NCBI RefSeq assembly: GCF_001586215.1
Contig: NZ_CP014634.1
Coordinates: 372,001-436,000, forward strand
DNA length: 64,000 nucleotides
Direction of reading: 5' to 3'
Source: Corynebacterium simulans
GTDB taxonomy: Bacteria > Actinomycetota > Actinomycetes > Mycobacteriales > Mycobacteriaceae
Shown here: piece after piece, positions 25,464-43,161 of the stretch
How positions within the stretch are numbered: the first letter of the stretch is position 1
Layout: every line of letters starts with the position of its first letter
Position numbers and translations under genes: made by a program
The notes under the pieces: model-generated
The model's input: the letters and a program-made list of their open reading frames with translations, nothing else
Told to the model about the DNA's origin: nothing
The model's database searches: none

Positions 25464-26291
25464 CTAAATCAGGTTACCGCCCAATTGCCGCAAAGTGGAA
25501 AATTCGCGGCGTGTGCCGGATAACGGATCTGCAAACTCTAGGCGGTGCGCCACGAGTTGGAGAGGCGAGGAAAAGTCGTAGAGGTCGAGTCCGCGGTCTA
25601 CCGGGTAGGTGTCGTCGCCTTGGATGGGAGCGCCTAAGTAGTTACAGACCACCCGCAGCTGGTGGGTATGCCCCGTGTGCGGAATGAGCGAGGCCGTATA
25701 GCCGTGTGCCTCCACTTGGGTCAACGTGGGCGTACCGCCGAGCGAGACTTGGCGGCTACCTTTGACCTTGTGCATGGAAAGCTCAACCGTTCCGGAGTAT
25801 TCCAGGCAGGCAGAAAGGCGCGCATGGTAGGTCTTGGTTACTTTGCGCTCAGCAAAAAGCCTCTGATACCTCCCGCGTGTGCGAGGGTTGCGTGAGCACA
25901 CCACTACCCCGGCAGTCAGGCGGTCGAGGCGGTGCAGCGGCACAATGTCATCTTCACCGAAATCCACGCGCAGGCGTGTCTGTAGGGTCTCGCGCACCAA
26001 TCGCCCATTGCTGGTCGTGGGTAAAAAGTGTGGCTTGTCCACGACGATGAGGTCGCGGTCTTCATAAAGCACCGTGTAATCGAAGGGAATCGGCTTCTCT
26101 TCGGGCACATCAGGGTGATACCAGGCAGGGACCGGACGTGAAAGCGCCATTCCCGCAGGCAGAAGCTGCCCCGGTGAAAACGGCGAATCGCCCGCCGCGG
26201 CCGCGAAGTACTCGGTGTCCGCGGGCACGACTGCCTGCAGGACTACTTTGCGCGGAGAAATCCCCTCGCGGGCTGGCGGGCGATAGGTCAC
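25464..26291 (-). CDS. RluA-family pseudouridine synthase
   Basis: The catalytic motif HRLDRLTAGVVV at about residue 121 contains the conserved Asp. VLYEDRDLIVVDKPHFLPTT precedes it, and GHTHQLRVVCNYLGAPIQGD is the C-terminal signature. The protein converts uridine to pseudouridine in rRNA or tRNA. The exact target site is not predictable. 275 residues with no S4 domain is the common short actinobacterial form. It lies 3 bp from the dapC stop and is probably cotranscribed with it. Confidence 0.92.
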   Translation of the reverse strand: MTYRPPAREGISPRKVVLQAVVPADTEYFAAAAGDSPFSPGQLLPAGMALSRPVPAWYHPDVPEEKPIPFDYTVLYEDRDLIVVDKPHFLPTTSNGRLVRETLQTRLRVDFGEDDIVPLHRLDRLTAGVVVCSRNPRTRGRYQRLFAERKVTKTYHARLSACLEYSGTVELSMHKVKGSRQVSLGGTPTLTQVEAHGYTASLIPHTGHTHQLRVVCNYLGAPIQGDDTYPVDRGLDLYDFSSPLQLVAHRLEFADPLSGTRREFSTLRQLGGNLI

Positions 26292-26294
26292 GGG

Positions 26295-27398
26295 CTAGTT
26301 GTCAGCAGCAAGGCGGGCCACAGCGGCATCGATACGCTCATCAGTGCCGTTCAAGCCGATGCGCACGAACTTATCACCCGATGGGCCATAAAAGTCACCC
26401 GGGGCAACCAAGATTCCGCGCTCGGCCAGCCAATCTACGGTAATGCGGCACTGCTCATCGCGGGTCGCCCACAGGTACATGCTGGCCTCAGAGTGCTCGA
26501 TGCGAAAGCCGGCGCCAGTTAGTGCGCGCAGGAGCTTAGCGCGGCGGGCGGCATAGTGGCGCACCTGCAGCGTCGCAGAATCGTCGTCGTTTAGCGCTTC
26601 AACCATCGCAGCCTGAATCGGCCCTGGAACGATAAGGCCTGCGTGCTTGCGCAGCTCGAGAAGCTCCGCGATAAGCGCCTCATCACCCGCGAAAAAGCCC
26701 GTGCGATAAGAGGCCAGGTTATGGGACTTCGACAACGAGTGCATCGCGATAAGACCCGTGTTATCGCCGTCAGTCACGCGCGGATCCAAGATGGAAACCG
26801 GCTTCTTCTCGTCGTCCCATGCCAACGCCAAGTAGCACTCGTCAGAGGCCACAATGACGTTGTTCTCACGCGCCCATGCCACCACGGCACGCATCTCTTC
26901 CACGGTCTTTACTCGGCCGGTCGGGTTCGACGGCGAGTTGATAAAGGCCAGCTCTGCATCGCCAAAGTCGCGAGGATCGTCCGCGCGCTCTGGGTATGCG
27001 CCAGCAATCAGCGCGCCCACCTCGTAAGTCGGATAAGCCACGGAAGGGATGATGACGCGCTGGCCGCGCATGCCCAGCAGCGTCGGCAGCCAAGCGATAG
27101 ACTCCTTCAAGCCGATTACCGGCAGTACGCCGAAGGAGGAAGGTTGAGCGCCCGTGCGGCGCGCAACATTACCGCGGATGGCTTCCTGCAGCTGCGCAGT
27201 GCCCGCCGTGGTGGGATAGCCGGGAGCCTCCGCGTGCGAAGCCATCGCCAGCTGCACGCCCGGAGCTACTGGATCGACCGGGTTGCCCACGGAAAGATCC
27301 ACGATGCCATCTGGGTGCGACTGAGCCTTCTTCTTCGCCTCAGCAAGCGAGTTCCACGGAAAGTCCGGCAGGCTATTTCCAAGCGGTTGACGAGCCAT
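26295..27398 (-). CDS. dapC: Succinyldiaminopimelate aminotransferase
   Basis: DapC is a fold-type I PLP aminotransferase converting N-succinyl-2-amino-6-oxopimelate to N-succinyl-LL-DAP. Motifs are FINSPSNPTGRVKTVEEM and ASDECYLALAWDD (PLP-binding Asp and Tyr), and MHSLSKSHNLASYRTGFFAGD with the Schiff-base Lys. The N-terminus LPDFPWNSLAEAKKKAQSHP is typical of the actinobacterial DapC group. 367 residues is the usual length. Together with dapD and dapE this window encodes three steps of the succinylase route. The gene order with fdxA and mshB matches M. tuberculosis. Confidence 0.93.
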   Translation of the reverse strand: MARQPLGNSLPDFPWNSLAEAKKKAQSHPDGIVDLSVGNPVDPVAPGVQLAMASHAEAPGYPTTAGTAQLQEAIRGNVARRTGAQPSSFGVLPVIGLKESIAWLPTLLGMRGQRVIIPSVAYPTYEVGALIAGAYPERADDPRDFGDAELAFINSPSNPTGRVKTVEEMRAVVAWARENNVIVASDECYLALAWDDEKKPVSILDPRVTDGDNTGLIAMHSLSKSHNLASYRTGFFAGDEALIAELLELRKHAGLIVPGPIQAAMVEALNDDDSATLQVRHYAARRAKLLRALTGAGFRIEHSEASMYLWATRDEQCRITVDWLAERGILVAPGDFYGPSGDKFVRIGLNGTDERIDAAVARLAADN

Positions 27399-27447
27399 TC
27401 TTAGGTCAAGCTCCTTATTTACAAGGTAGGCAGCGGGAAAAGTTAAA

Positions 27448-27476
27448 GCCCGGACCCAAATGCGTGAGGTCCGGGC
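27448..27476 (-). terminator. Terminator between fdxA and dapC
   Basis: Perfect 9-bp stem GCCCGGACC / GGTCCGGGC with an 11-nt loop. On the minus strand it is followed by TTTAACTTTT, 9 bp after the fdxA stop. Confidence 0.75.
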
Positions 27477-27484
27477 AGCAGAAA

Positions 27485-27808
27485 TTAATCCTGGTTCTGC
27501 GGAGGCAGGGCCGCAATCATTGGAGCGTCGAAGTCCTGTGGACCAAGCGCTGCAGCACCACCCGGGGAGCCAAGATCATCAAAGAACGCAGCGTTAGCGT
27601 CGTTGTAATCAATCCACTCATCCGGAACGTCATCCTCGTAGAAGATTGCCTCAACTGGGCAAGCAGGCTCACAAGCGCCGCAGTCTACGCACTCGTCAGG
27701 ATGGATGTACAGGGAGCGCTTGCCTTCGTAGATGCAATCGACGGGGCACTCTTCAACGCAAGCGCGGTCCATCACATCGACGCATGGCTGCGCGATAGTG
27801 TAAGTCAT
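27485..27808 (-). CDS. fdxA: 7Fe ferredoxin (FdxA/FdxC type)
   Basis: This 107-residue ferredoxin has a 3Fe-4S site (Cys in [19 protein letters not shown]) and a 4Fe-4S site ([16 protein letters not shown]). The C-terminal third (acidic, [12 protein letters not shown]) is the usual actinobacterial extension. It acts as a cytoplasmic low-potential electron carrier, for example to cytochromes P450 or oxidoreductases. The ATG at 27808 is the first in-frame and conserved start. It stands between dapC and the small membrane protein gene, as in mycobacteria (Rv1177). Confidence 0.95.
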
Positions 27809-27858
27809 GAGGTGCTAAAACTCCTGTTTTCACGGGTTTTGGGATGTCTAACAGTATG

Positions 27859-28239
27859 TCACTTTTGGACAAAAAATGGGAAAATTCCGCCCCCGATTCC
27901 GGCGATTAACAGCAGGAGCGAAAGAATATTATTGGCCAGCCACATATCGCCGGTCACGACCACACCCAGCACGAATGCGAAGTATCCCAGCAGCCAAGCC
28001 GCCAAAGGAACAAGCCCGATGTAGGCATTATCACTCCAGAGCCTTGCTGTGCGCGTGAGCACTGTATTAAACCACCAGGCTAGAACGATCGTGATGGGAA
28101 AAGCCACGCTCGTCCCACCCGGCAGCGGCAACCTGGCGGTGAGGTAGACAACTTCTAGAACCAGGGAGGTCAGCGCGCCTAGGCACAGCCAGGCCAGGCC
28201 GGTTATCTGCTCGCCGCGTGAGTATTCATTCAAAATCAC
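27859..28239 (-). CDS. Small four-helix membrane protein next to mshB (Rv1171-like)
   Basis: This 126-residue protein has four predicted transmembrane helices and no recognised catalytic motif. It overlaps the end of mshB by 4 bp (ATGA), so the two are translationally coupled. A small membrane protein gene follows mshB in M. tuberculosis too (Rv1171, from memory). Function is unknown, and its constant place after mshB hints at a link to mycothiol or the lipoprotein upstream. Confidence 0.82.
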   Translation of the reverse strand: MILNEYSRGEQITGLAWLCLGALTSLVLEVVYLTARLPLPGGTSVAFPITIVLAWWFNTVLTRTARLWSDNAYIGLVPLAAWLLGYFAFVLGVVVTGDMWLANNILSLLLLIAGIGGGIFPFFVQK

Positions 28240-29105
28240 AGGCCCTCCAGCAGCGCATCTGCAGGCTCGCCCTGCCCCAGCTGGTAGTGCTCAGCACGCA
28301 ACAACGGCATAACAAGGAGGTTGGACAGGCCATATGCGCTTGGCGACGCCGCCGGGTCCCCAATGGCCGCCGCAGCCGCTACCGGGTTCGTCTGGGTCAC
28401 TGTGGAGTCAGCCACCCAAATCTGCGTGGCATGGGCGACCATGGCGCGACGCTTGGCGGCTAGCGCGGCATCGTCAAGCCGGTATTCCACGTCAGCGCCC
28501 TCGTTGGTGAAATTGTCGAGGTAACCCCGGTCCGGCTTTCGCCAGCCCTCCGGTGCGCCGATGGTTTCAAGCGCGCTGTAGTGCGCACCACGTTCGAAGA
28601 TTGCCCACCAGATGCGCTGGTCTGGTGCTGCGGCCGCGTGGACTGCCTGGTGCACGGCGATGTGGTCCGGGTGGCCATAGCCGCCGTCCGGTCCGTATGT
28701 CAGCACGATATGCGGGCGAAGCTGCGCAAAGTGCTCGCGCAACAAGTCTGCCGCCTCGTCAATGCGGCGCACCAAGGCACGCGGATTCTCGTGAGCCGGT
28801 GAGCCCTCCATGCCGGAATCGCGGAAGAAGCCAAAGCCGCCGAGTTGAATACCGTGGACGCCCAAGATATCGAGGGCGTCGGAAAGCTCACGTGCCCTGA
28901 AACCGCCTAGCTGGTCTGCATTGCACAGGCCTTGATAAGGCGTGCCAATGACCTCGCCTTCCTCGCCGAGCGTGGCCGTGATGACCGTGACCTCGGCGCC
29001 CCTTGCAGCCATGTCAGCGAGCGTTCCGCCGGTAAAAAGCACCTCGTCATCTGGGTGAGCATGTACGGCCACCACGCGGTAACCGCGCAAATCATTATTT
29101 TTCAT
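28236..29105 (-). CDS. mshB: 1D-myo-inositol 2-acetamido-2-deoxy-glucopyranoside deacetylase
   Basis: MshB is the zinc-dependent deacetylase of mycothiol synthesis, removing acetyl from GlcNAc-inositol. The metal motif HAHPDDEVLFTGG (about residues 14-26) and the second site YGHPDHIAVHQAVH are both intact. The ATG at 29105 is chosen because a GGAGGAAAG ribosome binding site precedes it and the N-terminus KNNDLRGYRVVAVHAHPDDE fits. It begins inside the last codons of the lipoprotein gene (11-bp overlap). The open frame extends 29 codons upstream but without support. 289 residues is normal. Confidence 0.93.
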   Translation of the reverse strand: MKNNDLRGYRVVAVHAHPDDEVLFTGGTLADMAARGAEVTVITATLGEEGEVIGTPYQGLCNADQLGGFRARELSDALDILGVHGIQLGGFGFFRDSGMEGSPAHENPRALVRRIDEAADLLREHFAQLRPHIVLTYGPDGGYGHPDHIAVHQAVHAAAAPDQRIWWAIFERGAHYSALETIGAPEGWRKPDRGYLDNFTNEGADVEYRLDDAALAAKRRAMVAHATQIWVADSTVTQTNPVAAAAAIGDPAASPSAYGLSNLLVMPLLRAEHYQLGQGEPADALLEGL

Positions 29106-30678
29106 CTTTCCTCCACATCGGTGCCGTAATAAGCCCTGCATCCCAATCTTCGATGCGTTGACCGGGCCCAAGGATACCCCTGCCCAAAGCATGGATACGC
29201 ACCTCGTCCATCAAAGGTACGTAGAGCACCTCGTCAGAATTGAGTTTGCGGACCTTTTCCAAGGCGGCATCAGGATTGATACGCCCAGACAAGATTTCGC
29301 CGCGCATGTCCTCTGCCTCGGCAGGGCAAAAGCCGGAGATATCGCCGGCGCGTACCTCGTCGTTTTCACACATATAGAGGCTCGCCAGACTCTCCGGAGA
29401 CACGTTTGCATTCTCCCAGGCCACCACGGCATCCACCTCTGCCTCCGGCAGCATCTCGCCGGCAATGGTTTGAGTGCGGTCAGAGACTACCTCTGCACTA
29501 ATTGCTTGCGCTTCGAGGACGTCGACGATGGTGCTGGCAGCCGCCATAGCTTCCGGATGCGTGGGATCAGCTGCAATGCGCAGCGGCTTGCGGCCCGCGC
29601 GCTCGCGAAGTGGCGTCAGGTCTACTTCTTCGTTGACCGGGTTTTGGCCCGGACGCAACTCCGAGGCACGGCCCGCCGCCAGGCGAGCGACCTGGTCGGT
29701 CTCAATGAGCGAGGCCAAAGCACGACGCTGGCGTTGCTCTGGCAACGCGCCTTCCCGGGCGGAAAGGTGCAGGCGCAGCTGGCGATTACGGGTCACGGTC
29801 CCGGCGTTGACGTTGCTCAGCAAACTGAGGCTCTCCAGCGAGGTTTGTTCCGGAGTAAAGTCCACGAATCCCACCTGGCCCGAGCGCAACATGTTGACCG
29901 CCTGACTGGTATCACGGACAGCACGCAGCTGGACGACGTCGACAAGCGCGGGCCCCGCACCCCAGAAGCGGTCGTTGCGATTCAGGGTAATAACTCCCCT
30001 GCCGCGATCGACGGCCTCGACGGCATAGCGCCCAGCGGATGCAGGGATGCCGTCGGCAAGAGCTGCCGTGAACTCGGCGTCCTGCAGCAGGTGCGAAGGA
30101 AGAAGGTGAGCGAAAAGGCGGTGCCAATCGGATACGCGCTGCTTAAAATCCACCACCACAACGCGCCCTGCCGAGGTCGTGCTGATGTCCTCGATGGCGA
30201 AGTAGCCCGCTGGGTCCACCACTCCGGGGGTGGAGGTCATTTGGGTCCACAGGTAGTGAAAGTCACTGCCGCTAATCGGAGTGCCATCGGACCATTGCGC
30301 CGGTGAGGCAATCTTGTACACCACGCGCTGGGCAACACCTTTCGGCGGCTCTACCTCCGCCGCGCTGGCCAGCACATCGGAATCCATGTGTTCGCCGTGG
30401 AAAGCAGAAGGAAGGACGAGCTCTGCAATCTGGCTGACCAGCTCGCTGTTGTTGGCTACCAGATGCGGATTGAGTCCGCCGCGGAGCGGATCGACGCCGA
30501 TGGCGACGGTCTCGCGCTCGACGCCGTCCTCTTTTTCCTTCTTCTCGGGCGTCGGCGTTTCGGTCTGGGTGCTCTCGGCAGCTGGCTTGTCCTCGACGGG
30601 CGGCGGGCCTGGATTGGCCATGCACGAGGTGAGCACGCTAAGTGATGAGGCAACCACTACCGCGCCAAACTTTCGCAC
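29095..30678 (-). CDS. lpqW: LpqW-like lipoprotein, substrate-binding-protein family 5 fold
   Basis: The signal peptide MRKFGAVVVASSLSVL ends at the lipobox LTSC, followed by a Pro/Glu/Lys-rich linker. The rest has the fold of solute-binding family 5 (ABC peptide-binding) proteins: GLNPHLVANNSELVSQIAEL and YKIASPAQWSDGTPISGSDF. No permease or ATPase genes are nearby. In mycobacteria LpqW (Rv1166) lies beside mshB and typA and helps control lipomannan/lipoarabinomannan synthesis rather than uptake. Position and length (527 residues) support that assignment here. Overlap with mshB suggests an operon. Confidence 0.87.
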   Translation of the reverse strand: MRKFGAVVVASSLSVLTSCMANPGPPPVEDKPAAESTQTETPTPEKKEKEDGVERETVAIGVDPLRGGLNPHLVANNSELVSQIAELVLPSAFHGEHMDSDVLASAAEVEPPKGVAQRVVYKIASPAQWSDGTPISGSDFHYLWTQMTSTPGVVDPAGYFAIEDISTTSAGRVVVVDFKQRVSDWHRLFAHLLPSHLLQDAEFTAALADGIPASAGRYAVEAVDRGRGVITLNRNDRFWGAGPALVDVVQLRAVRDTSQAVNMLRSGQVGFVDFTPEQTSLESLSLLSNVNAGTVTRNRQLRLHLSAREGALPEQRQRRALASLIETDQVARLAAGRASELRPGQNPVNEEVDLTPLRERAGRKPLRIAADPTHPEAMAAASTIVDVLEAQAISAEVVSDRTQTIAGEMLPEAEVDAVVAWENANVSPESLASLYMCENDEVRAGDISGFCPAEAEDMRGEILSGRINPDAALEKVRKLNSDEVLYVPLMDEVRIHALGRGILGPGQRIEDWDAGLITAPMWRKDEK

Positions 30679-30771
30679 TTTGATACCGCCCTTCTACCTA
30701 GATCTGGAACCACTTTAGTCGGCTGGCGGGCATTGCTTGGAATTTGACGCTGTGTTTACGGCGCTCTTCAG

Positions 30772-30837
30772 CTGCATTCGAACCATCGAGTGGCTCTCTT
30801 GGGTGCCTTTTGGCGCCCTTCGATGGTTCGAATGCAG
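30772..30837. repeat. Nested palindrome copy 1 (downstream of the nuclease-like gene)
   Basis: Outer arms CTGCATTCGAACCATCGA (30772-30789) and its exact complement (30820-30837). Inner stem GGGTGCC/GGCGCCC (30801-30807 and 30812-30818, one G-T pair) with loop TTTT. The same 66-bp unit, with only a few differences, occurs at 31764-31828. It starts 6 bp after the nuclease-like gene stop and may also act as its terminator. Confidence 0.9.
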
Positions 30838-30843
30838 GTTGTT

Positions 30844-31695
30844 TTAATACATGAAGAAATGTGGATTGAGAAGCCGCAAGACCGCCAGGTGCCACGTACC
30901 AGTTTGCTGATGAGGAGCACTGCCAAAATCCGGTTGGTCCGCAGTACGAACTTGCTCGATGATGGCTGGGAGATGATGCGCCACGCAATGCCCCGTGTAG
31001 CGCAAGGTGCGCCACCCGCGAAGCACGGCGTCATTGTTCTTCCAGTGATCCTTTATCCAGGTATCCAGTGCTGAGTGAAATTTCCGACCATTAATTTCGA
31101 TGGCAATTCGCTTGTCCTTTAATACGATGTCCCATGCATAAACACCGATGAAGTAATTGCACTCAACGTCCATTCCCGCATCTTGTAATCCGCGGGCCAC
31201 CTTAATTTCCGCCGAAGAATCGGTGAATAGGACTGCTTCTGACAACGCTTCCTGCGTTCTCGAGTCTAGGCGAGCAAGCTTTCTTCTATCTTCTTCAAGC
31301 CGCGTTCTGCTACGTCGTCCTCGGTAGACCGCTTCGAGCATTTCTACTGCTTGAGTGCGCTCTGCAAAAGCCGCGGCCGCGAGCGGATTGTGTACTTTAA
31401 GACCTTCATATTCAAAGTGGTCTCTGACTTGGCTGCGTTTATAGGTAAACAGTGCACCGCTTCGCATCTTGTGTGGGCCTGCCACGATGACTGGAAAACT
31501 AAGGTCTTGTTCACTCAGCAATTGAGCTGCTGTATTCCCCGTTGCGCAACATCCGTGCTTGGCTGTTAGCAACGTGAGGACATCCCGCGGGTTCGGTTTA
31601 CCCCACACATAAATCCCGCGAGCAATTTTTGTTATTTCCCCCGAGCGCACGCGGGCAGCTATTTTCGATCGACTAAGCCCCGATACTGGTTGCAT
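30844..31695 (-). CDS. AbiEi-like winged-helix and DUF559/Vsr-type nuclease-fold protein
   Basis: The 283-residue product has an N-terminal winged-helix part (LSRSKIAARVRSGEITKIAR then GIYVWG), as in AbiEi-type proteins. The C-terminal region resembles DUF559 or very-short-patch-repair endonucleases, with the PD-(D/E)XK-like core WDIVLKDKRIAIEINGRKFH: Asp, then Glu-x-Asn. The upstream Glu of AEIKVARGLQDAG completes the site. Catalysis is not proven. The ATG at 31695 follows a strong ribosome binding site (GGGGGAGGGG) 6 nt upstream, which decides the start. The gene sits between two copies of a long palindrome and interrupts the typA-lpqW neighbourhood. Confidence 0.82.
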   Translation of the reverse strand: MQPVSGLSRSKIAARVRSGEITKIARGIYVWGKPNPRDVLTLLTAKHGCCATGNTAAQLLSEQDLSFPVIVAGPHKMRSGALFTYKRSQVRDHFEYEGLKVHNPLAAAAFAERTQAVEMLEAVYRGRRSRTRLEEDRRKLARLDSRTQEALSEAVLFTDSSAEIKVARGLQDAGMDVECNYFIGVYAWDIVLKDKRIAIEINGRKFHSALDTWIKDHWKNNDAVLRGWRTLRYTGHCVAHHLPAIIEQVRTADQPDFGSAPHQQTGTWHLAVLRLLNPHFFMY

Positions 31696-31760
31696 GCTTG
31701 CCCCTCCCCCTTGCATTGGCATCATCCAGTTTCGATGCTCAAGCTAGCACGAGAGAAAGC

Positions 31761-31831
31761 AACCTGCATTCGAACCATCGAGTGGCTCTTTTGGGCGCCT
31801 TTGGCGCCCTTCGATGGTTCGAATGCAGGTT
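31761..31831. repeat. Nested palindrome copy 2 (between typA and the nuclease-like gene)
   Basis: Perfect 21-bp outer arms AACCTGCATTCGAACCATCGA (31761-31781) and complement (31811-31831). Inner perfect stem GGGCGCC/GGCGCCC (31793-31799 and 31803-31809) with loop TTT. Nearly identical to the copy at 30772, differing by two substitutions and one indel. It lies 56 bp after the typA stop and could terminate that transcript. Confidence 0.92.
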
Positions 31832-31886
31832 CTCTGGCAAAAGAAAAGCGCGACCCCAAAACGGCCGCACTTTAATCTCCTAAGCG

Positions 31887-33797
31887 TTACTTGTTGAGCT
31901 GCTTCGCACGGGAAGCTGCACGCTTACGGTCGGTAGCGGAAAGCTCGACCTTACGCACTCGCATGACGTTCGGAGCAACCTCGACGCACTCGTCGTTGCC
32001 ACAGAACTCAAGCGCCTCGTCCAGGGAAAGGGTACGCGCCTTTGCCAGGGTGACGGTTGCGTCTGCGGTGGCAGAACGCATGTTGGTCAGCTTCTTTTCC
32101 TTGGTGATGTTGATGTCCATATCCTCATCACGGTTGTTAGCGCCAACGACCATGCCCTCGTAAGCCTCCATGCCTGGCTCGACGAAGAACTCGCCACGGT
32201 CAGCCAGCTGCTGCAGTGCGTATGCGGTGATCTGGCCGGAGCGGTCAGCAACCAGGGAGCCAGTCGGACGGGACTTGATCTCGCCTGCCCAGACATCCAG
32301 GCCATCGGCGATGGAGTTAGCGATACCTGCACCGCGGGTCTCGGTCAGGAACTGGGTGCGGAAGCCGATGAGGCCACGCGCCGGAACGCGGAAGATCATG
32401 CGTACCCAGTCACCCTCGCGGACGTCCATGGACTGCATCTGGCCCTTGCGGGTAGCCAGTAGCTGGGTAACGGCGCCCTGGTACTCGGAAGGTGTATCGA
32501 TGGTGAGCATCTCGTATGGCTCCATGGTCTTGCCATCGACAACCTGGGTAACAACCTGTGGCTTACCCACGGTCATTTCGAAGCCCTCTCGGCGCATGTT
32601 CTCAATCAGAACGGACAGCGCCATTTCGCCGCGGCCCTGTACCTCCCAAGCGTCAGGACGCTCGGTCGGCAGAACCTTCAGGGACACGTTACCGATAAGC
32701 TCCTGTTCCAAACGAGCCTTGACCATACGTGCGGTCAGCTTGTCGCCACCGCCCTGGCCAGCCATTGGGGAGGTGTTAACGCCGATGGTCATAGAGATTG
32801 CCGGCTCATCAACGTGAATCTGTGGCAGAGCAACCGGGTTTTCAACGTCGGCGATGGTATCGCCAATCATGATCTCTGGGATACCAGAAATGGCGACGAT
32901 GTCGCCGGCAATAGCCTCGGTCTCTGGCTGGCGCTCAAAGCCGACGGTACGCAGCAGCTCGGCAACCTTAACGTTCTTAACTACCTCGTTGCCGTCCTCA
33001 TCCCAGGAGATCCAGGCAACCTGCTGCCCCTTCTTGATCTTGCCGGAGTAGATACGCAGCAAAGCGATACGGCCCAGGAAGTCAGAGGAGTCAAGGTTGG
33101 CCACATGCGCCTGCAACGGGCCGTCGACGGAAGCGGATGGCTCCGGCAGAACCTCGTAGATGACGTCGAAAAGCGCCTGCAGGTCCTCAGCCGCAGGAAC
33201 GTTGCCGTCTCCTGGGTTCTCGGTGGAAGCCTTGCCCTCACGGCCAGAAGCGTAGAGTACCGGCAGATCCAACAGTGTTTCTGCAGCAGCAGCTGCTTCC
33301 TCATCCTCTAGGCCGGAGGCGATTTCCAGCAGGAGGTCGTGGGACTCGTTGACAACCTCGTCGATACGAGCGTCTGGGCGGTCGGTCTTGTTAACGCAGA
33401 TGATGACCGGCAGCTTGGCTTCCAGAGCCTTGGTCAGAACGAAGCGGGTCTGTGGCAGCGGGCCTTCGGAGGCGTCGACAAGCAGCACGACGCCGTCAAC
33501 CATGGAGATACCGCGCTCGACCTCGCCACCGAAGTCGGCGTGGCCTGGGGTGTCGATGACGTTGATGATGAGGTCGCCGCCGTCCTTGCCCAGACCCTTG
33601 CGGTGAATAGCGGTGTTCTTCGCCAGAATGGTAATGCCGCGCTCGCGCTCCTGGTCATTGGAGTCCATGACGCGGTCCGTGTGCTCGCCGTGGTCACCGA
33701 AGGCGCCGGACTGCTCCAGCATGCCGTTGACGAGGGTGGTCTTACCGTGGTCAACGTGGGCGACGATGGCGACGTTACGGAACTCGGTATTAGTCAC
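31887..33797 (-). CDS. typA: Ribosome-associated GTPase TypA/BipA
   Basis: This translational GTPase related to EF-G has 636 residues. G1 is [16 protein letters not shown]2 lies in RERGITI, G3 is [12 protein letters not shown] and G4 is NKTD. Domains II, III, V and the C-terminal BipA-specific domain follow ([16 protein letters not shown] is typical). It binds ribosomes and supports 50S assembly, often under stress or cold (family knowledge). The GTG at 33797 gives the family N-terminus [16 protein letters not shown] and has AAGGAG 10 nt upstream. The frame extends 15 codons further without support. Confidence 0.95.
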
Positions 33798-34125
33798 TGG
33801 TGGGGTGCTCCTTAAAAGCAAAGTTGGAACGCTTAAGCGCAAGATTTTGAACGGGGTCTAAATATACTCTGCAAGTTTGCAATTTGCAGCATTGGAACAC
33901 CCCACTGAAGCGGGAAACCGCAGGAGCCAGCGTTTTGTAACAAATCTATAACCCCGGACGAAAGACGGGTTGAGACACACTTTCGCTTTAGAAACTGGCT
34001 TGACCGCAAGAAAAAAGTGAATATTGTTACCAGAGATACTATTGTGACCAATGTGCCGAGTGTTATCGTCAAACATCTCGCACCCATTTCCGTCTCCTAC
34101 ACCCAATTCAAGGAATCTGATAATC
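33798..34125. other. Divergent intergenic region between typA and secreted-protein gene
   Basis: The 328 bp between the typA and secreted-protein starts are AT-richer than the surroundings. They hold -10-like TATAAC at about 33949 and TACTAT at about 34036, and the typA ribosome binding site AAGGAG. No riboswitch, repeat or gene could be recognised. Confidence 0.4.
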
Positions 34126-34875
34126 GTGAGCACCTCGAGCACCGCACCTAGCTCCGAGCACAACAACGGACGCCGCCTCCGCGCGAGCTCCGGCATGATT
34201 GCTGCCGCTACCGCGGCGCTCATCGGTCTAGCCACTCCCCTTATCGCACCGGCCCAGGCAGACGCCCCGGACCTGGCCGCGCTGGAGGCACAGGCAATGT
34301 CGCACTCCCCGCTGGATTCGCTGGGACGTCCCAATGAGGCAACCCAGAATCGTATCCGCGAATTCGCCGCACAGCCATGGATTCCTAACGACATTCGCAG
34401 CGCCATCCTCTCCGGACTTGCTTTCAGCATGGGCCAGGGAGGCGATCCAGGCGTGGAATTGCCAGAGGGCCAAAGCCCGGCATTCCGCCAGTTCTACTGG
34501 CCTACCGTCTCCGCAAAATGCATCGGGGGCCAGGGCGATTCCATGGGTTCTGCCATCGCTGTCCCGGGCCCTACCAAGATACCAGCACCGGGTGCAGGTC
34601 CAGGTGAGACAGTCTTCCTCTTCACGGCACTGGGCACTTCCCCTGCAGCTAAGGAGCAGGGCAACATGAAGGTCCAGTGGTTCAACCTGGACACTTTCCA
34701 GTCCGGCGTTACCCCGCTTTTCAACAACGGCATCAACGCCGACGGCCCCACCACCGTCTCAGGCCGCGCCACCACGGGCAAGGGCACCGTCGTGGCCATC
34801 TTGTCCGGTTCCGTCAACACCCAAGATTCCGCGTGCGCATTCCCGCCAACTGCCGCCTTCCTTGAGGTTAATTAA
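34126..34875 (+). CDS. Secreted Ala/Pro-rich protein, Rv1157c-like
   Basis: The 249-residue product has an N-terminal basic stretch (NNGRRLRASS), a hydrophobic signal segment (GMIAAATAALIGLATPLIAP) and a likely cleavage after AQA. It is expected to be exported. The mature part contains two Cys (KCIGG and DSACAFP) that could form a disulfide, with no recognised enzymatic motif. A similar protein occurs near the typA region in mycobacteria (Rv1157c, memory only). The GTG at 34126 is preferred, with AAGGA about 11 nt upstream. The longer frame adds 25 residues lacking support. Confidence 0.75.
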   Translation: MSTSSTAPSSEHNNGRRLRASSGMIAAATAALIGLATPLIAPAQADAPDLAALEAQAMSHSPLDSLGRPNEATQNRIREFAAQPWIPNDIRSAILSGLAFSMGQGGDPGVELPEGQSPAFRQFYWPTVSAKCIGGQGDSMGSAIAVPGPTKIPAPGAGPGETVFLFTALGTSPAAKEQGNMKVQWFNLDTFQSGVTPLFNNGINADGPTTVSGRATTGKGTVVAILSGSVNTQDSACAFPPTAAFLEVN

Positions 34876-35411
34876 TGAACGTCGATCTACACCCTGTCAA
34901 GCAAGAAACCTTTAATACAGCGGAAAACATCAACGTCGATCCAAAGGGTTTCTTGCGCGAGGTCGACACCTACAAAGAAACCGAATTTGGTCTTTACATG
35001 GCCCGCGGTACTAATCATCCGCGCTTTGGTTACCTCGAATCTTGGTTGCTGCCTGAACTGGGCCTGCGTGCGAATATCTTCCACTTCCGGGAAGGGGTTG
35101 AGGCACACCAGGACTTCTACTTCGATATCGCTGACATCGATAACAAGGATGGCGTCTGGACTACCCGTGACCTTTACGTCGATCTGGTCTCCAACACAGG
35201 CGAGCCAATCGACGTTCTCGACATCGACGAACTGGCCGCAGCCACCTCCGCGGGTTTTATCTCGGCAGAAGAGGCAGAGCGCGCTATGGACCGTACCCTC
35301 ATCGCGGTCGAAGGCATTACCCGATACGGCGACGATTCCATGGCTTGGCTGCGCGCCCTCGGCATCGAGCTTTCTTGGGCTGACTCTGTCAATCTGACGC
35401 CTGCGGAGTAG
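34875..35411 (+). CDS. DUF402 family protein
   Basis: The 178-residue product belongs to the DUF402/FomD-like family: ESWLLPELGLRANIFHFREG, followed by DFYFDIADIDNKDGVWTTRD and LYVDLVSNTGEPIDVLDIDEL. Family members of known structure bind divalent metal, and some hydrolyse nucleotides or activated phosphates. The function here is unknown. The start overlaps the preceding stop by one base (TAATG), so it is coupled to the secreted-protein gene. Confidence 0.87.
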   Translation: MNVDLHPVKQETFNTAENINVDPKGFLREVDTYKETEFGLYMARGTNHPRFGYLESWLLPELGLRANIFHFREGVEAHQDFYFDIADIDNKDGVWTTRDLYVDLVSNTGEPIDVLDIDELAAATSAGFISAEEAERAMDRTLIAVEGITRYGDDSMAWLRALGIELSWADSVNLTPAE

Positions 35412-35466
35412 TTGCGTAAGATATCTAGGGTTACTTACCCCTTCATATTAAGGATGCTTATTCCCC

Positions 35467-36387
35467 ATGGCCGGTGGACTTTTTGCACTGCTTGACGACG
35501 TCGCGGTAATCGCTCGCGCGGCAGCCTCCAGCGCCGACGACGTCGCTGCCTTAGCTGGCAAGACCTCGGTAAAGGCGGCGGGCGTCGTGGTCGACGATGC
35601 CGCCGTTACCCCACAGTATGTCTCCGGCGTTACCCCAGCCCGCGAGCTGCCTATCATTTGGCGCATCACCAAGGGCTCGCTCATCAACAAGATCGTCATC
35701 ATCTTGCCGATCGCACTGCTGTTGTCTTGGATTGCGCCGTGGGCGCTGACCCCCATTCTCATGTGCGGCGGTACTTATCTGTGCTTTGAAGGCGCAGAGA
35801 AGATCTTCCACCACTTCGCAGCGCATGGCGCAGAAGAAGAAAAAGAAGAACAGGCGGACGCAAAGGATCCAGACGCCGAAGACAAGTTGGTTAAGTCTGC
35901 CGTTACCACGGACCTTATCTTGTCCGCTGAGATCATGGTGATCTCGCTCAACGAAGTCATTGACCAAAGCTTCTGGATGCGCCTAGGCGCGCTGCTCATC
36001 GTCGCCGTCGCTATCACTTTGGCGGTCTATGGCGCTGTCGGCGTGCTGATCAAGATGGACGACCTTGGCATTAAACTGCTGGAGCGCAACGAAGGAAAGT
36101 CGGCCGTCGGCAACGCCTTGGTCAAGGGCATGCCGGTAGTTCTCGACATCATCTCCGTCATCGGCACGGCGGCAATGCTGTGGGTAGGTGGCCACATCGT
36201 TATCAAGGGTCTGCACGAGTTCGGCATCAACCAGCCGCACGGTTTTATCCATCACCTAACCGAACCCATCTCCAACGGCGCGCTGGCCTGGACCGTAGAT
36301 ACCGTCTGTTCCATGGCCTTCGGCCTTGTCCTGGGCACCATCGTCGTGGGCATCGTCACAGGTGTCAAGAAGGCTCTCGGTAAGTAG
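35467..36387 (+). CDS. DUF808 (YedI-like) inner membrane protein
   Basis: This 306-residue multi-spanning membrane protein starts MAGGLFALLDDVAVIARAAA, the family hallmark. A short acidic/Lys-rich loop follows the second helix (AEEEKEEQADAKD), and there are about six to seven hydrophobic helices in all. The function of the DUF808/YedI family is unknown. It is 55 bp from the DUF402 gene on the same strand and may share its transcript. Confidence 0.9.
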   Translation: MAGGLFALLDDVAVIARAAASSADDVAALAGKTSVKAAGVVVDDAAVTPQYVSGVTPARELPIIWRITKGSLINKIVIILPIALLLSWIAPWALTPILMCGGTYLCFEGAEKIFHHFAAHGAEEEKEEQADAKDPDAEDKLVKSAVTTDLILSAEIMVISLNEVIDQSFWMRLGALLIVAVAITLAVYGAVGVLIKMDDLGIKLLERNEGKSAVGNALVKGMPVVLDIISVIGTAAMLWVGGHIVIKGLHEFGINQPHGFIHHLTEPISNGALAWTVDTVCSMAFGLVLGTIVVGIVTGVKKALGK

Positions 36388-43070: not shown

Positions 43071-43161
43071 GGAGACGGACAGGAATCGAACCTGCCAGAC
43101 CGAGCTACTCGGCCTCACCGGTTTTGAAGACCGGGGCGCCCACCAGGACACGTACGCCTCC
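43071..43161 (-). tRNA. selC: tRNA-Sec (anticodon TCA)
   Basis: The minus strand folds as a tRNA. The acceptor pairs GGAGGCG with CGTCTCC (one G-T pair). The anticodon stem-loop CCGGT-CTTCAAA-ACCGG contains TCA, matching UGA. The long variable arm has a 7-bp stem (GGCCGAG/CTCGGTC) with loop TAG, and the T arm is GCAGGTTCGATTCCTGT. About 91 nt and the extra arm are typical of tRNA-Sec. CCA is not encoded. It is located just upstream of selA. Confidence 0.95.

Follow-up and report, generated by a model that had tools for sequence, protein, structure and literature searches.

We analyzed a palindrome-flanked gene in a 64,000-nucleotide stretch of the Corynebacterium simulans genome (hereafter, the window; contig NZ_CP014634.1, positions 372,001 to 436,000, forward strand). 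The gene (P0001; 30844..31695, minus strand) encodes a protein of 283 amino acids that, judging from its frame and its Pfam and fold matches, combines an AbiEi-like N-terminal half with a Vsr/EDxHD-type nuclease domain. The gene, its matching palindromes and their scattered copies point to a selfish repeat system whose enzyme is of a type not known to have that role. On balance, we think it probable that the product is a dimeric nuclease that reads the arms of its cognate palindromes, in a system resembling that of repetitive extragenic palindromes (REPs) and REP-associated tyrosine transposases (RAYTs) but built on an unrelated enzyme.

As an earlier note on this DNA had described, two nearly identical palindromes bracket the gene, whose neighbors are typA and an lpqW-like gene. 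The upstream (5′) palindrome (31761..31831, 71 bp) has 21-bp arms, a nested GGGCGCC stem and a 65-bp core, and the downstream (3′) one (30772..30837, 66 bp) has 18-bp arms and lies 6 bp from the stop codon; a longer version of the open reading frame (ORF) extends to 31725. The two share one orientation (direct, not inverted), and their cores of 66 and 65 bp differ at two substituted positions and by a single 1-bp indel, in agreement with the roughly three differences counted earlier. RNA folding of both palindromes exceeded that of shuffled sequences (z −8.3 and −12.1, 0 of 200 each). A tRNA-like interpretation of GGTTCGAAT, which lies in the arm, was rejected: neither palindrome holds a tRNA, and Rfam gave nothing in 26000–36000.

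The pairing of gene and palindrome extends well beyond the window. In 242 Corynebacterium genomes we scanned 116 gene loci, the better matches among those listed, for gapped palindromes, and 66 of the genes had one beside them under strict criteria (score ≥13, length 45–90 bp, ≤300 bp from the gene). Dereplication at 80% identity reduced the 116 genes to 72, of which 41 carried such a palindrome (29 had it only 5′ of the gene, 8 only 3′ of it and 4 on both sides) and 31 did not. Around the 116 genes, 72 palindromes lay within 300 bp versus 3 at 301–1400 bp, and 5′ flank palindromes occurred in 33 of 71 relatives versus 0 of 710 shuffles. Because palindromes of the same criteria were absent in shuffles and rare beyond 300 bp, a chance origin of the layout in the window is unlikely. 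As a base rate, the window contains four further palindromes of equal strictness elsewhere, and 107.5 kb of typA loci yielded the pair from the window plus one in locus L168. Bracketing on two sides was also seen at L029, L080, L032, L091, L120 and L168. L029, from another family, has a DUF559/MTES_1575 match and 48- and 50-bp palindromes at the two ends of the gene, the downstream one overlapping the end of the frame. The AbiEi_4-type gene of L168, from another genus of the order, likewise stands behind typA, with palindromes sharing an arm on both sides and no nuclease family found in it at E ≤ 0.01. The likeness to REP-linked nuclease genes suggested in the earlier note is borne out by this recurrence in many relatives, together with dispersed solo palindromes.

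Two-sided bracketing, here and at these six loci, could mean that the gene and both palindromes move as one cassette, a palindrome-bounded transposon. The neighbors in the window are typA/bipA upstream (31887..33842, minus strand, by Pfam) and, downstream, a family-5 solute-binding protein gene (29095..30678, minus strand) that we take to be lpqW-like, Pfam assigning it to the solute-binding family. Among the 18 of 30 typA loci that could be parsed (12 could not), nine had neither gene nor palindrome, with typA running straight into the start of the lpqW-like gene as read by eye; this fits movement of a unit and contradicts the alternative that the gene is ancestral at this place in all relatives. 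Against a transposon, no second complete copy of the unit was found in its own genome, arms vary among family members, and 37 of 41 units have a palindrome on one side only, a count that leaves out copies overlapping the end of the frame. Around the unit we saw no target-site duplication, as the earlier note had also reported, there being no close filled and empty pair of this gene to compare. We regard a transposon as quite improbable. The earlier idea of a minimal cassette or mobile unit using palindromes thus stands for its REP-like layout and not for movement of the whole unit, given also that the sole orthologue, in C. striatum, is at the same place. AbiEi/DUF559-looking genes lie directly behind typA in two other genomes of the order (L168 and L170), with palindromes only in L168; the position behind typA is possibly an insertion hot spot.

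The arms vary between genes and track the protein. For 64 of the 66 palindrome-bearing genes (two near-identical ones were left out), arm and protein similarity were correlated (Mantel rho 0.34, 0 of 2000 permutations), arm similarity staying at chance level for protein identities below ~40% and being mostly high for those above 60%. Across 553 pairs with 45–95% nuclease identity, arm similarity followed the nuclease domain less closely than it did the N-terminal and middle regions. A natural domain swap at one locus, downstream of a gene that by eye appears to be ppa (inorganic pyrophosphatase), links the N-terminal region to the arms. There, genome G073 and five relatives with the same upstream gene (G012, G125, G127, G189 and G192) have nuclease domains that are 91–96% identical and middle regions that are 81–87% identical, whereas the first 50 residues are 56–62% identical and the arms of the upstream palindrome in G073 are unlike those of the five. 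Compared with G012, the upstream 1265 bp show 96% identity, a single divergent block then covers the palindrome and the ~88 initial codons, and beyond it identity returns to ~90%; G012 has two upstream palindromes and G073 one. This locus belongs to subfamily 2, and alignment suggests that codons 1–88 of the window gene (31432..31695, minus strand), its winged-helix/AbiEi-like region, are the counterpart of the exchanged stretch.

Palindromes with window-type arms are dispersed in the C. simulans genome (G000). Seven, with an outer span of 63–64 bp, were found: the pair flanking the gene and five more distributed behind three 5S rRNA genes, with a degraded copy behind a fourth. The nearest palindrome is ~160 bp behind each of the four 5S genes (L037, L038, L191 and L192); to judge from the ORF lists, transposase ORFs of IS3-like type are also present in L038 and L191. 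A 30-base fixed-gap pattern of the window arms, searched with ≤3 mismatches in the 242 genomes, matched only this genome (6 sites) and C. striatum ATCC 6940 (G238, 3 sites; control 0), which are the two with the orthologue between typA and lpqW, the C. striatum orthologue having its own arms. The counterparts of two solo C. striatum sites in C. simulans carry no palindrome, and the exact ends of these sites were not definable because the intergenic sequence is too diverged. By eye, three palindrome-like copies in C. striatum ATCC 6940 (L198, L199 and L200) fall within repeats of apparently one protein-coding frame.

By the same kind of pattern search, sites of a second arm family, that of subfamily 2, occurred in 21 of the 242 genomes, with a maximum of nine per genome (control 0). 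In 17 of the 21, a gene among the matches listed adjoins a site (hand count), and the remaining four (G073, G160, G186 and G248) have one copy each by pattern, with 1–2 mismatches. The C. simulans genome holds a subfamily 2 paralogue (L041/L228; C1:1821405-1822333) with one internal TAA reported and two adjoining palindromes. The 20 loci examined represent seven distinct sites; as read by eye, five lie between convergent genes, one lies behind a tandem gene and one is unclear. Such positions would suit ordinary bidirectional terminators that spread by gene conversion and have no relation to the enzyme, as would site S7, where 3 of 27 stem pairs changed on both sides across nine genomes (a further two pairs are disrupted in some of them) and where C. 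simulans and C. striatum have other hairpins, of terminator type, in place of the palindrome. This explanation is nevertheless very improbable, as the arms match the resident gene, co-vary with its protein and were exchanged along with its N-terminal region. Terminator-like matches in the window region were at the shuffle mean (2 versus 2.0), and typA has its own separate terminator-like hairpin outside the palindrome (31845..31873, minus strand). The earlier note had named an ordinary terminator with no link to the gene family as an alternative, and the palindrome proved to be tied to that family. The outer arm end of S7 is tandemly repeated, once more in G160 and G012 and twice more in G159 (L295, L296 and L297).

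Comparison of orthologous sites S1–S4 of the second arm family gave differences at 43 of 870 arm positions (a figure biased low because sites were picked by arm match), 165 of 870 interior positions and 1275 of 8539 flank positions, over 29 pairs in four groups that are not independent. At S3, two genomes differ at 13 of 291 flank positions versus 14 of 30 interior positions; an inversion of the interior, as judged by eye, aligned no better than the direct orientation. Presence also differs between genomes. S1 is present in six of eight and absent in two; S3 is present in five, absent in G160 and G186, and in G073 replaced by a palindrome whose specificity is that of the gene G073 itself carries; and S4 is present in four, was not found in G186, and in G160 is interrupted by ~1.6 kb of other sequence (L325) that reads as IS-like (resembling an insertion sequence). 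Two candidate insertions were rejected: sites thought to be specific to G125 included S7, which nine clade members share, and at S5 a single palindrome in G125 stands against two in each of four other genomes whose region was cut out cleanly (five further genomes yielded no region and two an overlong one).

Not everything fits a simple selfish system driven by the enzyme: palindromes with arms of the G073 type are still found in G160, G186 and G189, where no matching gene was seen, and G073 retains off-pattern copies of the other specificity. No fresh palindrome insertion with clean ends was found among the sites compared. Copies are few, with six window-type sites in the C. simulans genome and at most nine per genome in subfamily 2 by pattern, whereas the abstract of PMC2817692 gives REP copy numbers as usually >100.

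Pfam matched the 283-amino-acid protein to MTES_1575, DUF559 and AbiEi_4 and to no transposase, and in fold comparison the N-terminal region resembled AbiEi and the C-terminal region had a Vsr-like fold; by these comparisons the protein appears to be an AbiEi-like half joined to a predicted nuclease of Vsr/I-Bth0305I type. The nuclease domain (codons 158–255; 30931..31224, minus strand) has conserved acidic and histidine residues as in EDxHD homing endonucleases (E163, D189, E200, H207 and D216), retained in 110–113 of 113 relatives; the family name is that of PMC3943268, and the putative assignment of its letters to these residues is our own mapping. PADLOC returned only weak AbiEi and homing-endonuclease matches, a PDB sequence search found no convincing relative, and nuclease-domain matches of 33–36% occurred in six plasmids, with none in a phage search. 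In a literature search that left subscription papers outside, we found no work joining DUF559 with AbiEi, and reports joining DUF559 with palindromes were, by title or the start of the abstract, apparently unrelated.

We propose that the AbiEi-like half would read the ~20-bp arms, placing the C-terminal domain over the variable middle of a ~66-bp palindrome that would be the cognate site of the enzyme dimer. We consider the pairing of gene and palindrome demonstrated and direct binding of the palindrome likely, and we infer that the protein dimerizes and cuts as a site-specific nuclease. The palindrome beside the gene probably doubles as an operator, and it might be an operator only; the protein would then be an AbiEi-type repressor acting on inverted repeats of its own promoter, its nuclease fold would be active elsewhere, and the remaining copies would be by-products. 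Consistent with this, 57 of the 72 near palindromes are on the 5′ side, the N-terminal fold appears to match AbiEi, and AbiEi and Rv2827c bind paired inverted repeats of their own promoters (PMC7319586). We nonetheless consider it unlikely, given the 15 of 72 palindromes on the 3′ side, the two-sided units, the dispersed solo copies behind genes and rRNA operons, and the conserved catalytic residues. In the selfish system that we favor, palindromes elsewhere, mostly at gene 3′ ends, would form a small dispersed repeat family whose arms stay in step with the resident enzyme; our best but unproven reading is that these palindromes are spread or maintained through cutting or repair.

The nearest known systems are REP/RAYT and REPINs, in which palindromes flanking a gene recur elsewhere in the genome. 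PMC2817692, PMC3116915 and PMC3733652 describe a palindrome-flanked gene, repeat copies scattered at the 3′ ends of genes, a variable spacer between two conserved ends of ~16 bp, and gene–repeat co-evolution; on that description, the window system shares the layout, the genomic position of copies and the co-evolution. The IS-like insert within the S4 palindrome of G160 likewise resembles the targeting of REPs by insertion sequences that PMC3733652 mentions. Unlike RAYTs, the enzyme is AbiEi-like plus Vsr/EDxHD rather than an HUH tyrosine transposase (Transposase_17/Y1), and the window's flanking palindromes are direct rather than inverted, each ~66 bp with ~20-bp arms. The Vsr-like nuclease fold and its acidic and histidine residues are shared with the EDxHD homing endonuclease I-Bth0305I, but here, if the palindrome is the target, the putative site is intact both beside the gene and elsewhere and is not interrupted by it, the arms are conserved and the middle is variable, and no intron or intein was seen. 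In contrast to AbiEi-family antitoxins (S. agalactiae AbiEi and Rv2827c), the AbiEi-like region here is fused to a nuclease and the sites are dispersed; unlike AbiE type IV toxin–antitoxin systems, the window locus has typA and the solute-binding protein gene as direct neighbors and no adjoining nucleotidyltransferase toxin gene. Elsewhere in the window, a selenocysteine tRNA lies at 43071–43161 (minus strand; Rfam RF01852, 76.8 bits; also ARAGORN).

More tentatively, and as something we hold to be possible rather than probable, this may be a new class of bacterial selfish repeat, a dispersed family of ~66-bp palindromes driven by a Vsr/EDxHD nuclease whose AbiEi-like reading domain can be exchanged. 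Specificity would change by block exchange of the reading domain and palindrome, and scattered copies would then follow the resident enzyme. The natural domain swap renders the recognition code directly testable. Dispersed palindromes matched by a nuclease other than an HUH enzyme would mean that such repeats can arise in a second, independent way, and this would suggest a function for AbiEi/DUF559-type genes, which among the matches listed occur in at least 124 of the 242 genomes of the genus.
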